Assembly (NCBI GenBank): GCA_000153145.1 | Contig: CH672415.1 | Coordinates: 251,854 to 315,853, forward strand | Direction: 5' to 3' | Length of the DNA stretch: 64,000 nt | DNA from: a marine actinobacterium PHSC20C1 | GTDB lineage: Bacteria; Actinomycetota; Actinomycetes; Actinomycetales; Microbacteriaceae | In this document: positions 23,617 to 35,946 of the stretch, piece after piece | Layout: every line of letters starts with the position of its first letter | Numbering within the stretch: the stretch's first letter is position 1 | The notes under the pieces: generated by a model | Told to the model about the DNA's origin: nothing | Database searches by the model: none | Seen by the model: only the letters and a program-made list of their open reading frames with translations | Made by a program: the position numbers and the translations under genes

Positions 23617-24609
23617 ATGACGCAGGTGAACCCGACGCGATTACAGCCGGGTTCCACTGGGGCGCGTGAAATAACCCAGCCGCACTTTACTACCAGAGTT
23701 ATTGGCTCGTCCGACCTCCGGGTTTTCCCTGTAGCGCTGAGTGGAAACGTCTTTGGCTGGACAGCGGACGATCCCGCAACAACCTCAATTCTCGATACTT
23801 TCGCCGATGGCGGCGGAAATTTTATTGACACCGCTGATTCGTATGCCTCAGGTCGAAGCGAGCTAATGATTGGCCGATGGATGCGCGACCGTCGCAATCG
23901 AGACAACATCGTCGTGGCGACCAAAGTCGGCAAGAGTCGCGAGAATCCGGGAATGCGCGCGGAAGCCATCAAACGTTCCGTCGCCGCCTCGCTTTCCAGA
24001 CTGGGCACGTCACATATCGACCTGTTGTACTTGCATGTTGACGATGAAAGTGTTGACTTCGACGAGACATTGCTTGCCGTTGATGAGCTGATTGGTGAGG
24101 GCAAGGTTCGCTATTTTGGCGGCTCTGACCACACCGGAAATCGTCTCATCCAAGCGCGTATCGCGTGCGGCCAGATGGGAGTCGCGCCGATGGTTGCGGT
24201 CCAATCTCACTACAACTTGCTCCATCGCAAAGACTACGAGACCGGTCTTGCTCATGTTGCGGCGATTCAGGGACTTGGCGTGATGCCTCGCTTCGCGCTG
24301 GCCAGTGGCTTCTTGAGCGGAAAATACCGTCAGCGTGCAGACGTGGCTCGCAACCCTCGAGGGCATGACGCTCTCCGGTATATGCGCCGTCGCGGATTCA
24401 AAGTGTTGCACGCACTCGATGAGGTTGCGGACGAGCACGAGGCAAGCGTTGCGACAATAGCCTTAGCCTGGTTGCTCAATAAGCCAGGAGTAGTCGCTCC
24501 GGTCGTCAGCGCCAGCAGTGCCGTCCAAGTGCCCGAACTGCTTGCCGCCGCGCGCGTACAAATGACGCGACACCAGTCGGCAGAGCTCGATCGGGTGTCG
24601 AGCTACTAA
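23617..24609 (+). CDS. Aldo/keto reductase
   Basis: 330 aa TIM-barrel NADPH-dependent oxidoreductase. FADGGGNFIDTADSYASGRSE contains the catalytic Asp and Tyr, VVATKVG the Lys, and SRLGTSHIDLLYLHVDD carries the active-site His. The C-terminal LLNKPGVVAPVVSASS region binds the cofactor. Physiological substrate unknown. ATG 23617 follows GGGAGG by 5 nt. Its stop overlaps the convergent TetR gene by 4 nt, so the regulator is a candidate for controlling it. Confidence 0.9.
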   Translation: MTQVNPTRLQPGSTGAREITQPHFTTRVIGSSDLRVFPVALSGNVFGWTADDPATTSILDTFADGGGNFIDTADSYASGRSELMIGRWMRDRRNRDNIVVATKVGKSRENPGMRAEAIKRSVAASLSRLGTSHIDLLYLHVDDESVDFDETLLAVDELIGEGKVRYFGGSDHTGNRLIQARIACGQMGVAPMVAVQSHYNLLHRKDYETGLAHVAAIQGLGVMPRFALASGFLSGKYRQRADVARNPRGHDALRYMRRRGFKVLHALDEVADEHEASVATIALAWLLNKPGVVAPVVSASSAVQVPELLAAARVQMTRHQSAELDRVSSY

Positions 24610-25199
24610 ACGGAGACGGACTCGGCAAGTACGCGCTTGACGACGCGCGCCATTGCTGCTCCGGCTGCAATGGTGTCGCCGGCATATCCGCCAGCTAGCG
24701 CGCCGTCTTTTGCGAGCATGAGTTCGTCTGCGGCGTCACCGGCGAACGGGTGGCCCGCGCCACGCATTAGTTCGTACAGCGTTTCGTTGTACCAGTCGCG
24801 GTGCTCAGCGATCAGCACGCGCACGGGATGTGTGGGGGAGGGGAACTCGGCAACAACGTTAAGGAACGGGCATCCGCGGAAGTCGCTCTTGGTGAGTTTA
24901 GCGGCAATACTCTCTAGCAGCCCAAGGACGGCGTCGTGAGGGGACGCGGCGCCTTCAATGATCGACTGCACTTGAGCCTCTGTAGCTGCTCGGCGGCTTT
25001 TGACGTACTCGAGAATCAAGTTGTCTTTTGAGCGGTAGTGCTTATAGAAAGTAGCTTTCGTCACGCTCGATTGCGCAATGATGCGGTCTACTCCGACGTT
25101 CAATATGCCGTCTTGGTAAAAAAGTTGGTTGGCCGTGTCGAGGATGCGACCTTTGGCCGGAGCGCGCTGTGCGGTCTCTGGTGTCTCAAATACCATCAC
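24606..25199 (-). CDS. TetR/AcrR-family transcriptional regulator
   Basis: 197 aa. N-terminal TetR helix-turn-helix at about 17-63: ILDTANQLFYQDGILNVGVDRI then SVTKATFYKHYRSKDNLI. The C-terminal ligand domain contains a conserved Cys-Pro (GCPFLNVVAEF), seen in a TetR subgroup. It starts at GTG 25199 or ATG 25196, both served by AAGGAG (complement 25207-25212). Upstream lies the hairpin array, which on this strand would form its 5' leader. Confidence 0.9.
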   Translation of the reverse strand: MMVFETPETAQRAPAKGRILDTANQLFYQDGILNVGVDRIIAQSSVTKATFYKHYRSKDNLILEYVKSRRAATEAQVQSIIEGAASPHDAVLGLLESIAAKLTKSDFRGCPFLNVVAEFPSPTHPVRVLIAEHRDWYNETLYELMRGAGHPFAGDAADELMLAKDGALAGGYAGDTIAAGAAMARVVKRVLAESVSV

Positions 25200-25213
25200 A
25201 GCGCACTCCTTCC

Positions 25214-25431
25214 GGGGGAGATTCGGATCAGGAACGGTTCCCCACTAGTTGCATCGCTAGATTTCGGGATCAAGCGATGCGGTTGTGATACACAACCCGG
25301 TTCGGGTCCGGGTTGTGTGGTTATGGATCATCACTAGGTTCGGGTCCCAGTGATGGGTTGTCGGCTTCGGGTGCCTAAAAAGAACTGTAGCACATGAGGA
25401 CATACAGACAAGTCTGTCTGTCCTCTTTTTT
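25214..25431 (+). ncRNA. Candidate structured RNA: tandem hairpins with identical TTCGGG(T) loops plus terminator
   Basis: Hairpin 1: 25251-25262 with 25269-25280 (11 of 12 pairs), loop TTCGGG. Hairpin 2: 25290-25300 with 25308-25318 (11 of 11), loop TTCGGGT. Hairpin 3: 25329-25338 with 25346-25355 (9 of 10), loop TTCGGGT. Hairpin 4: 25363-25365 with 25373-25375 (3 pairs), loop TTCGGGT. A shorter GAT-TCGG-ATC element at 25220-25229 may be a fifth copy. Stem sequences differ while pairing and loop are kept, as expected of an RNA motif. A terminator on the + strand (25397-25431) closes the array. The promoter is unclear; TACCAT at 25191-25196 is a weak -10 candidate. A role as leader of the minus-strand tetR gene is the main alternative. 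Confidence 0.5.
25397..25431 (+). terminator. Intrinsic terminator closing the hairpin array
   Basis: A 13-bp stem (25397-25409 with 25412-25424, one mismatch) with a 2-nt apex is followed by C and six T. It is oriented for the + strand only. The M16 peptidase gene downstream has its own start-proximal promoter, so this stop belongs to an upstream + strand transcript. Confidence 0.8.
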
Positions 25432-25510
25432 CCTCCCCAATTTGGGGGACGGCCCACACACAGCAGACACCCAGCGGACTGCGAGTCGATAATGACGTAG
25501 GCTCATAGCG

Positions 25511-26881
25511 ATGATCGACGCTGTAACGCTTCCTCTAGACCTTCCCGAACTGTCGTTCACCGCAACCGGCGACAGTCTCGTTCGCAGGACCGTATTGCCG
25601 AGTGGCGTACGTATCCTCAGCGAACAAGTGCCCGGTGCGCGCAGCGCGACTGTCGGCTATTGGGTAGCCGCTGGTTCGCGCGACGAGCTCACCGGCACCT
25701 TCGGTGCAACCCACTTCCTAGAGCACTTGCTTTTCAAAGGAACACCGTCGCGCTCGGCCCTCGATATTGCGGTCAGCTTTGATGCGGTTGGTGGCGAACA
25801 CAACGCGATGACGGCCAAGGAATACACCTGCTACTACGCGAAGGTGCAAGACATTGACTTGCCCATGGCGATTGAAGTCATCGGCGACATGCTGACGTCG
25901 AGCTTGATCGATCCCACAGAATTCTCGAACGAGCGCGGGGTGATTCTCGAAGAACTCGCCATGGCCGACGACGATCCGACCGACGTGGCCAGCGAACGCT
26001 TCTTTGAAGCAGTTTTCGGTGATCATCCGCTTGGCCGTCCGATTGGCGGCAGTCCAGAGACAATTAATGCCATCTCGAGGGACTCTGTCGTCGCGCACTA
26101 CCGGGGAAACTACCGGCCGCAGGACCTCGTGATTACCGTCGCCGGTGCCGTTGATCACGACGTGCTCGTTGCTGCGGTCACGGCGTGCTTGGTTGCCGCC
26201 GGATGGGACCTTTCGCTCTACGCGGCCCCCGTTGCTCGACGCGAGAGAACAGCGGCCGTCCCTTCGGCTATTGGCTCACCAGTCCAGAGCCTTCACGTGA
26301 CACCCCGGCCCATCGAACAGGCAAACATCATTGCCGGTGTCGAAGGACTATCGGCCACTGACGAGCGGCGCGCAACGCTCACGGTTCTTAACTCGATCCT
26401 CGGCAGCGGAATGTCATCGCGCTTGTTTCAAGAGGTGCGAGAAAAGCGTGGACTCGCGTACTCGGTGTACTCGTTTGCTCCGAGCTACTCTGATGCTGGA
26501 GTCTTCGGAATCTATGCCGGATGCTCCCCAGCAAAGTCGGCACAGGTTACCGAGCTCATGCTCGAAGAATTCACCAAGCTCGGCGCAGCCCCCGTAACCG
26601 ACGAAGAAATTAGCCGAGCAGTGGGGCAATTGCGAGGCGCTTCTGCTCTCGCTCTTGAAGATTCTGACTCTCGGATGTCTCGACTCGGTCGAAGTGAACT
26701 GACACTCGGCGAATTTGTAGACCTCGACACCTCAATCGCACGGATTTCGGCGGTCACTGCCGACGGAATCCAAGAACTTGCTCGCGAACTCTCTTCGCGC
26801 CCGCTGTCCATTGCGGCAGTCGGTGCGGTCGACGATGAGATGTTTTCCGGGCTTACTCTCGGCAGCGCCGCCCAGAGTTAG
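25511..26881 (+). CDS. M16-family zinc metallopeptidase (mitochondrial-processing-peptidase-like)
   Basis: 456 aa. The inverted zinc motif HFLEH (H68, E71, H72) is present, and the third ligand is the Glu pair at 147-148 in RGVILEELAM. The C-terminal half has REKRGLAYSVYSF, the substrate-binding RY-like segment of the family. Relatives in Gram-positive bacteria (YmxG/PepR type) are encoded next to pnp and dapB; the substrate is unknown. TAGGCT at 25498-25503 is 7 nt before the ATG, implying a leaderless mRNA. Confidence 0.92.
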   Translation: MIDAVTLPLDLPELSFTATGDSLVRRTVLPSGVRILSEQVPGARSATVGYWVAAGSRDELTGTFGATHFLEHLLFKGTPSRSALDIAVSFDAVGGEHNAMTAKEYTCYYAKVQDIDLPMAIEVIGDMLTSSLIDPTEFSNERGVILEELAMADDDPTDVASERFFEAVFGDHPLGRPIGGSPETINAISRDSVVAHYRGNYRPQDLVITVAGAVDHDVLVAAVTACLVAAGWDLSLYAAPVARRERTAAVPSAIGSPVQSLHVTPRPIEQANIIAGVEGLSATDERRATLTVLNSILGSGMSSRLFQEVREKRGLAYSVYSFAPSYSDAGVFGIYAGCSPAKSAQVTELMLEEFTKLGAAPVTDEEISRAVGQLRGASALALEDSDSRMSRLGRSELTLGEFVDLDTSIARISAVTADGIQELARELSSRPLSIAAVGAVDDEMFSGLTLGSAAQS

Positions 26882-34977: not shown

Positions 34978-35946
34978 TTGGGTGTTGCGCGCCGGTGGGT
35001 ATTTCCCATCATTTGGATGGTTATCTTTGCAATCATTGCGGCCGCGCTCGTTAAGTTCGCGTTCTTTGGCGATGCGCTCAAAGCCGATGATCTGGAGTAT
35101 CCGACCGTCGCTATCGAAGAGCAGCATTACGAGGTTGTCTCCGGCACGATCACGAACGATGTCGAGCTGAGCGGCAGCATTTCGGCTGCGGCGAGTGTTG
35201 CGATCCCTGCGACTCTGTCTGGCGAGGTGCGTGAAGTCTCTGTCGCGGCGGGACAGTCGGTGAAGAAGGGTCAGGAAATCCTCAAGCTTCGCGCAGAAGT
35301 GATGAACCCGGATGGCACGCAAGGAACTCAGTGGAAGGTCGTTTCAGCGCCGGCTACTGGCAAGCTCACTGACTTCACCGCTCTTGTTGGCGCATCCTTC
35401 GAAGTTGGCTCTCCTCTGGGAAGCATTGCCCCGCCTTCGTACATCGTCAGCGGAACTGTGCCATCCGAGCAGCTCTATCGACTCGTCGATCGCCCCAAGG
35501 AGGCCACCGTTGCGATTAACGGAGGTCCGGCCCCGTTTACGTGCACGGGGCTGAGCATCACTTTTGTGGCTGCGGGGGAGTCGAGCGGGGAGTCCGCAGC
35601 GGGCCCGACCGTCTCGTGTGTCGTTCCTCGCGATGTTGTAGTTTTCCCGGGACTGACCGCCGCGATTACGATCGCCGGCGGAATTGCCGAGGATGTCATG
35701 GTGGTGCCAATTACTGCCGTTGAAGGTACAGCGCTTTCGGGCAACGTCTACTTTGTGCTCCCTGACGGCACGACAGAGCTGCGCGAGGTTGTGCTCGGCC
35801 TCAACGACGGCATCACCGTCGAAGTCGTCTCAGGGCTAGAAGTCGGCGACAAAATCTTGCAGTTTGTTCCGGGCGCTGAAGCGGTCGACGAGGGGGCACT
35901 GCCTGATAATTGCTACCAAGACGGCGACGAAGTCGTGTGCTACTGA
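34978..35946 (+). CDS. MacA/HlyD-like periplasmic adaptor of an ABC exporter
   Basis: 322 aa. One N-terminal membrane helix (residues 5-28), then a biotinyl-lipoyl-like barrel (SGEVREVSVAAGQSVKKGQEILKL) and a beta-barrel plus membrane-proximal domain ending in VVSGLEVGDKIL. In MacAB-like systems the adaptor links the permease to the cell exterior or substrate. TTG 34978 is preferred: GAGG lies 6 nt upstream and the membrane helix then starts at once; an in-frame TTG at 34933 would add 15 residues rich in Cys. The C-terminus carries two cysteines (NCYQDGDEVVCY). Its stop overlaps the next start (TGATG). Confidence 0.82.
   Translation: MGVARRWVFPIIWMVIFAIIAAALVKFAFFGDALKADDLEYPTVAIEEQHYEVVSGTITNDVELSGSISAAASVAIPATLSGEVREVSVAAGQSVKKGQEILKLRAEVMNPDGTQGTQWKVVSAPATGKLTDFTALVGASFEVGSPLGSIAPPSYIVSGTVPSEQLYRLVDRPKEATVAINGGPAPFTCTGLSITFVAAGESSGESAAGPTVSCVVPRDVVVFPGLTAAITIAGGIAEDVMVVPITAVEGTALSGNVYFVLPDGTTELREVVLGLNDGITVEVVSGLEVGDKILQFVPGAEAVDEGALPDNCYQDGDEVVCY

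Follow-up and report, generated by a model that had tools for sequence, protein, structure and literature searches.

A tandem array of CCC-loop hairpins, most likely the leader of a tetR-family mRNA, is conserved in Microbacteriaceae

The tetR locus, its hairpin array and its promoter

The window analysed here, a stretch of 64,000 nucleotides from the marine actinobacterium PHSC20C1 (contig CH672415.1), is part of a 2.77-Mb genome of a Salinibacterium relative in the family Microbacteriaceae. The gene order around the array is pnp, genes for a phosphatidylethanolamine-binding protein and an aldo-keto reductase, a tetR-family gene on the minus strand, the array itself, genes for an M16 peptidase and a histidine phosphatase, and dapB, the array lying between tetR and the divergent M16 peptidase gene (Table 1). 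It comprises four hairpins and one short unit within positions 25220–25375, and the loops read TTCGGG or TTCGGGT on the plus strand. These hairpins had been described, with their coordinates, stems and loops, in a sequence-only reading of the same DNA, and all of them are present in the sequence. The fold of the region was more stable than that of each of 200 shuffles on either strand (z = −5.3 on the minus strand and −2.9 on the plus strand), and the minus strand of 25195–25390 contained four CCC-loop hairpins, whereas 100 shuffles averaged 0.56 and never exceeded three. The same reading had counted the short unit as a partial fifth hairpin. It is present in the sequence, but its pairing is not kept in the relatives: GATCCGAA is invariant in 11 of them, and the 3' arm reads ACC in six of the 11 and, by eye, is unable to pair there. 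Judged by this alignment, the short unit probably does not belong to the array as a hairpin.

Table 1. Features of the tetR locus and of two similar arrays elsewhere (window positions unless a locus is named)
Feature	Position	Strand	Basis or remark
tetR-family gene, 197 aa, GTG start	24606..25199	-	Pfam TetR_N, E 5.1e-12
Shine-Dalgarno GGAAGGAG of tetR	25206..25213	-	sequence
Predicted 5' untranslated leader of tetR, ~180 nt	25200..25377	-	start placed ~7 nt past -10, from promoter position
Short unit GAT-CCGA-ATC near ribosome binding site	25220..25229	-	sequence
H4, GCATCGCT-T-GAT-CCCGAA-ATC-T-AGCGATGC	25251..25280	-	sequence, alignment of 11 relatives
H3, ACACAACCCGG-ACCCGAA-CCGGGTTGTGT	25290..25318	-	sequence, alignment of 11 relatives
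H2, CATCACTGGG-ACCCGAA-CCTAGTGATG	25329..25355	-	sequence, alignment of 11 relatives
H1, hairpin at expected RNA 5' end, GGC-ACCCGAA-GCC	25363..25375	-	sequence; invariant in 11 close relatives
-10 box TACAGT of tetR, extended by TG at 25391-25392	25384..25389	-	sequence; family conservation
-35 box TTGTCT of tetR, within operator	25406..25411	-	sequence; 16 nt to -10
Palindromic TetR-type operator GGACAGACAGACTTGTCTGTATGTCC, earlier read as plus strand terminator	25398..25423	-	sequence, conservation
Tandem hairpins, ACCCGA-type and C-run loops	L248 1130-1790 (G089), L249 1170-1345 (G117)		away from tetR

The palindrome beyond H1 had been taken for a 13-bp terminator stem closing a plus-strand RNA (25396–25432). 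The predicted stem has 12 pairs and one mismatch, and a terminator scan of 24500–25700 found one site where 1.1 were expected by chance. The terminator reading is not supported, since the palindrome holds the core ACAGACNNGTCTGT over the −35 box of tetR. This core occurs once in the genome without mismatch, and the sole site with one mismatch lies inside a predicted open reading frame; a search for the core with up to one mismatch thus found no second convincing operator site in the genome. Upstream of tetR, the whole-palindrome pattern is present at 23 of 26 genus loci, with variants seen by eye at two more, and an operator-like half-site is present in 70 of 74 distinct leaders from the family. 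The extended −10 box TGNTANNNT lies within 32 nt past the half-site in 57 of these 74 leaders, and at a distance of 10–13 nt in 51 of the 57, whereas it occurs in 7.9% of random 40-nt stretches from the same sequences. In the 57 leaders measured, the distance from the −10 box to the start codon ranges from 87 to 280 nt. A conserved palindrome that overlaps the gene's own promoter is the arrangement of TetR autoregulation, and the palindrome therefore looks mainly like a TetR-type operator over the tetR promoter. As in other autoregulated TetR promoters, a palindromic operator covers the −35 box of the regulator's own promoter, but here a long structured leader follows and the genome yielded no second convincing operator site. 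By eye, the plus strand carries a run of at least five T past the palindrome in seven of the 11 close relatives, and the palindrome may have a second use as a plus strand terminator.

With the operator core over the −35 box and an extended −10 box behind it, the array is most likely the leader of tetR, starting with H1. A tetR leader with ACCCGAA loops had been mentioned earlier as a mere alternative; on the evidence of operator and promoter it becomes the most likely reading, and the minus strand is indicated as well by the ribosome binding site and by the significance of the fold. In Curtobacterium, the array may extend into the tetR gene itself, since a CCCCCC-loop hairpin can form in the coding start of tetR, where the first codons at three loci (L142, L156 and L159) contain, by eye, a possible hairpin GACGGTCG-ATTCCCCCCAAC-CGACCGTC or close forms of it. 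The tetR leader in the window also contains, by eye, a short upstream open frame; G016 has a stop at that position. On the other side of the operator, the M16 peptidase gene is possibly leaderless, with ATGACGTAGGCTC at 25492–25513, a possible −10 box TAGGCT and 6 nt to the ATG; by eye, ATGACGTAGGCTC recurs ahead of this gene in relatives. The operator could also act on this divergent gene, as a second target.

Conservation of loops and stems in the genus and the family

A tetR match at E 1e-30 was found in 26 of the 27 genus genomes, and G004, whose tetR match had 38% identity, was left out of the genus set. The DNA of the array was matched in 28 of 60 genomes, its own included: 11 over nearly the whole length, 14 in H1 and the operator, and three in the operator only. 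In a MAFFT alignment of the 11 long leaders (A3), 86.6% of the cells pair, and 14 of the 35 pairs have changed on both sides, which are the compensatory base changes expected of a structured RNA. The covariation score of this alignment was 0.235, compared with 0.152 in shuffles, none of 500 of which scored as high, and with no more than 0.073 in slid controls, over which A3 is favoured because its reference structure was taken from the window sequence.

The four hairpins contribute differently to this result. H1 is invariant in all 11 close relatives and therefore gives no covariation evidence; among the 14 more distant genus leaders, it is exact in 11 and altered in three by eye. In H2, 93.6% of the cells are paired and four of ten pairs have changed on both sides, with the loop reading ACCCGAA in eight relatives and CCCCGAA in one, and being lost in two (G005 and G012). 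H3 is the most changeable in its stem, with eight of 11 pairs changed on both sides around a loop that reads ACCCGAA in all 11 relatives; its 74.4% of paired cells is a lowered figure, because the MAFFT register is off by one in some rows. In G025 (L032), the 11-bp stem of H3 is wholly different from that of the other ten species (ATGTGAGCGAG-ACCCGAA-CTCGCTCACAT), and the loop is unchanged. In H4, 89.1% of the cells are paired, two of 11 pairs have changed on both sides, and the loop contains CCCGAA in all 11 relatives. Three of the four loops (H1, H3 and H4) thus keep CCCGAA in every close relative, and the fourth (H2) keeps it in nine of the 11. By eye, the other hairpins of the 14 distant leaders often, not always, carry ACCCGA or a variant such as ACCCCCGA on new stems. 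The proposal of the sequence-only reading that loop and pairing are kept, rather than the stem sequence, is borne out by these compensated stem changes around constant loops.

In the family, tetR was matched at E 1e-40 in 105 of 249 genomes; at the same threshold, beyond the own genome, none of 119 genomes from the order, at least seven others of which belong to the same family, gave a match. We analysed 130 loci, consisting of 25 from the genus, 25 further ones from the family (out of 100 other matching family genomes) and 80 from named records. These gave 109 distinct full-length leaders, of which 74 remained after near copies were removed; start codons were chosen by script, and seven of the 109 leaders had no scored ribosome binding site. 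The 74 leaders contained 145 CCC-loop hairpins with at least five pairs, compared with 35.2 (sd 5.5, maximum 45) in 30 dinucleotide shuffles. Loops with CCCGA numbered 63 and those with CCCC 75, compared with 2.4 and 12.9, respectively, in the shuffles, and hairpins of all kinds numbered 316 compared with 240.5. On the reverse strand of the same leaders, seven CCC loops were found. Flanking DNA, sampled as 1500 mostly coding windows on both strands, gave 385 CCC loops, or 0.26 per window versus 1.96 per leader, a 7.6-fold difference, and two or more C-loop hairpins occurred in 46 of the 74 leaders versus 42 of the 1500 flanking windows. The number of C-loop hairpins per leader ranged from zero to five, with seven of the 74 leaders lacking a CCC loop. 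Two kinds of loop predominate in the family, ACCCGA(A) and runs of four to six C. Where the run has three C, GA comes next in 57 of 65 loops, which favours sequence-specific recognition; runs of five or more C have no clear follower, A coming next in 17 of 48.

Known RNA families and similar hairpins elsewhere

The earlier statement that the array fits neither 6C RNA nor the ANTAR hexaloops agrees with our analysis. No Rfam family matched the window at curated cut-offs, and a search of 16 tetR loci with E values of up to 5 gave no sensible match. Four hits at these loci, to two animal microRNAs, one animal lncRNA and one CRISPR repeat, were far below the cut-offs and were attributed to chance, and none of them lay within the array of the window. 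In the paper library searched, no paper naming both 6C RNA and Microbacteriaceae was found, and among the matches listed, no title described the array element (titles and abstract starts). Nothing in the Rfam library searched matches this RNA element, which is strongly conserved and presents nearly one loop on many different stems.

The closest known design is that of 6C RNA (RF01066), which has two hairpins, each with about six C in its loop, uses these loops to pair with mRNAs, and is what we take the mycobacterial RNA B11 to be. The gathering threshold of RF01066 was not reached in the window or at the 16 tetR loci, and the genome has its own 6C RNA elsewhere, with CCCCCC loops and 52.1 bits, above the cut-off. 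The absence of an Rfam match, together with this true 6C RNA in the same genome, indicates that the array is not 6C RNA. Its loops contain three C rather than the six or so of the 6C type, and loops of five or six C occur in some other genera. The sequence-only reading had reached the same exclusion, which stands, by contrasting the array with the C-rich loops of 6C RNA, which does not: the minus-strand loops are C-rich too, and the design comes nearer to 6C RNA than had been thought. Both are neighbouring hairpins with C-rich loops in actinobacteria, and many other tetR leaders have loops of four to six C; the array differs in that it most likely leads an mRNA, can have as many as five C-loop hairpins and, in this genus, has mostly ACCCGA loops. 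The array shares the C-loop design of 6C RNA yet is separate from it. 6C RNA is treated in PMC6789036 and PMC9569102.

ANTAR-target RNAs, described in PMC8164766 as dual stem–loops whose hexaloops have A at position 1 and G at position 4, resemble the array in being tandem short stem–loops in a leader with A at loop position 1. We rejected this assignment: ACCCGA has C at position 4, the loops of the window have six or seven bases, many loops of the array type have seven, and there are often more than two units.

Similar hairpins outside tetR leaders were sought with a hairpin model (R1) built from 35 ACCCGAA hairpins, whose 86.1% pairing is biased because they had been preselected for pairing. 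In the own genome, the three best matches all lay in the array, and the next had an E value of 0.14. In other members of the genus, some matches outside tetR leaders equalled the scores of the array (up to 30.8 bits), and the seven strong ones that were inspected lay at gene ends or within or next to open frames. At E 0.01, R1 matched 41 of 120 family genomes and, among the matches listed, most were not at tetR. G089 and G117 each had tandem matches that lay away from tetR and had other C-loop hairpins in their vicinity; one site lies behind a predicted gene, and the other is flanked by two genes predicted on the minus strand, its C loops being on the opposite strand. The CCC-loop counts in G089 and G117 were four versus 1.4 and three versus 0.75 in shuffles, some of which reached these counts. 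With matches off tetR, two of them tandem, the design may be independent of this gene. Near strong R1 matches in two species (L186 and L188), two small hairpins with CCCCC and CCCCGAA loops were seen by eye beside a predicted gene start. Cruder patterns were uninformative. Paired ACCCGA motifs gave 18 matches in the own genome, two of them in the array, and 27 in a reversed control, and thus no excess; a cluster of ACCCGA at 35284–35391 formed no hairpins by eye; and a triple ACCCGA pattern, matched in 203 of 299 family genomes, many of which exceeded the reversed control, fell mostly in coding repeats by eye among the matches listed.

Possible roles of the loops

That the loops are kept while the stems turn over suggests that something reads the loops, and the shared CCC core of the two loop kinds points to something that recognises C runs in single-stranded form, or to a G-rich RNA. 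The idea, already put forward from the sequence, that repetition of one loop amounts to multivalent presentation fits, since several like loops per RNA would suit multivalent binding. We tentatively favour a model in which the array is the leader of an autoregulated tetR mRNA and its loops dock a trans-acting partner that controls this mRNA in cis. TetR, bound to the palindrome that covers the −35 box, would repress its own gene, and once repression is lifted, the leftward transcript would open with tandem hairpins, each presenting a CCC-containing loop. These loops, ACCCGA(A) here and often four to six C in other genera, would serve as repeated docking sites for one partner, which could be a G-rich RNA or a protein recognising C runs in single strands. 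Once bound, this partner would determine either the translation of the tetR mRNA or its decay. The hairpins, the largely conserved loops, the compensated stems, the near-unique operator and the conservation across the family are observed; the transcription start, autorepression, the partner and the cis effect are what we infer from them. To our knowledge, the usual RNA chaperones are largely missing in actinobacteria. With nearly one loop on many different stems, the array offers a clean natural experiment for finding the reader of C-rich loops in this phylum. It would also connect a TetR switch with an RNA design of which 6C RNA is the known, and at best partly understood, relative.

A less likely but serious alternative is that the leader acts in trans. 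Liberated or cleaved off at an early stage, it would be a small RNA of the 6C type or a sponge, switched by TetR and its ligand, and would use its C loops to pair with other RNAs at G-rich sites. The common C-loop design of 6C RNA, with CCCCCC loops in the same genome, and the tandem arrays away from tetR agree with this alternative, and the near-uniqueness of the operator core implies that the array transcript is the likely main target of TetR. According to PMC12395582, B11 regulates its targets through a C-rich loop. Two features of the locus argue against release of a separate RNA: the scan of the window found no minus-strand terminator between the array and tetR, and the ribosome binding site and start codon follow directly after the array.

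We consider it unlikely that the hairpins merely shield the mRNA from decay at its 5' end or act as spacers for the ribosome binding site, with C-rich loops serving to avoid mispairing. The position of H1 at the expected 5' end, the varying number of C-loop hairpins and the excess of hairpins of all kinds in the family leaders would be expected of such a function, but stability alone would require neither the GA that follows most three-C loops nor fixed H1, H3 and H4 loops on changing stems. More doubtful still is a broader scheme in which the C-loop arrays at tetR and at other loci are family-wide multivalent RNAs that gather one common partner, perhaps proline tRNAs, for which 6C RNA competes, the TetR ligand switching the amount of free partner.

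Docking by a tRNA, in which the loops would kiss the anticodon loops of proline tRNAs and so sense tRNA-Pro, is very unlikely. CCCGAA is complementary to six contiguous bases (UUCGGG) of the anticodon loop of tRNA-Pro(CGG), with four for the next best of the 44 tRNAs, and CCCCCC best matches tRNA-Pro(GGG), with five bases compared with three for the next best, but 3.8% of random 7-nt loops match some tRNA equally well. The A that such pairing would want after runs of five or more C is present in the minority counted above, and the m1G usually present at position 37 of tRNA-Pro would prevent one of the pairs. T-box leaders and others that sense tRNAs likewise have a loop with complementarity to an anticodon loop, which in the array may be a chance match; the array differs from them in having no Rfam match.

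The original proposal of a plus-strand structured RNA ending at a terminator is the least credible: the T runs of the relatives and the wobble-pair counts (G-U versus A-C wobbles 36 versus 28 in the 74 leaders, P = 0.38, 56 versus 53 in the 109, a further count of 52 versus 46, and 21 versus 10 in A3, where the cells count related sequences repeatedly) are compatible with it, but the palindrome is operator-like with a minus-strand promoter at a fixed distance, the minus-strand fold is the more significant, and many of the plus-strand loops in other genera would be runs of G. Beside the operator, a second palindrome, CCCCAATTTGGGG, lies at 25435–25447, and similar forms such as ACCCGAACTGGGGT were seen by eye in many members of the family.
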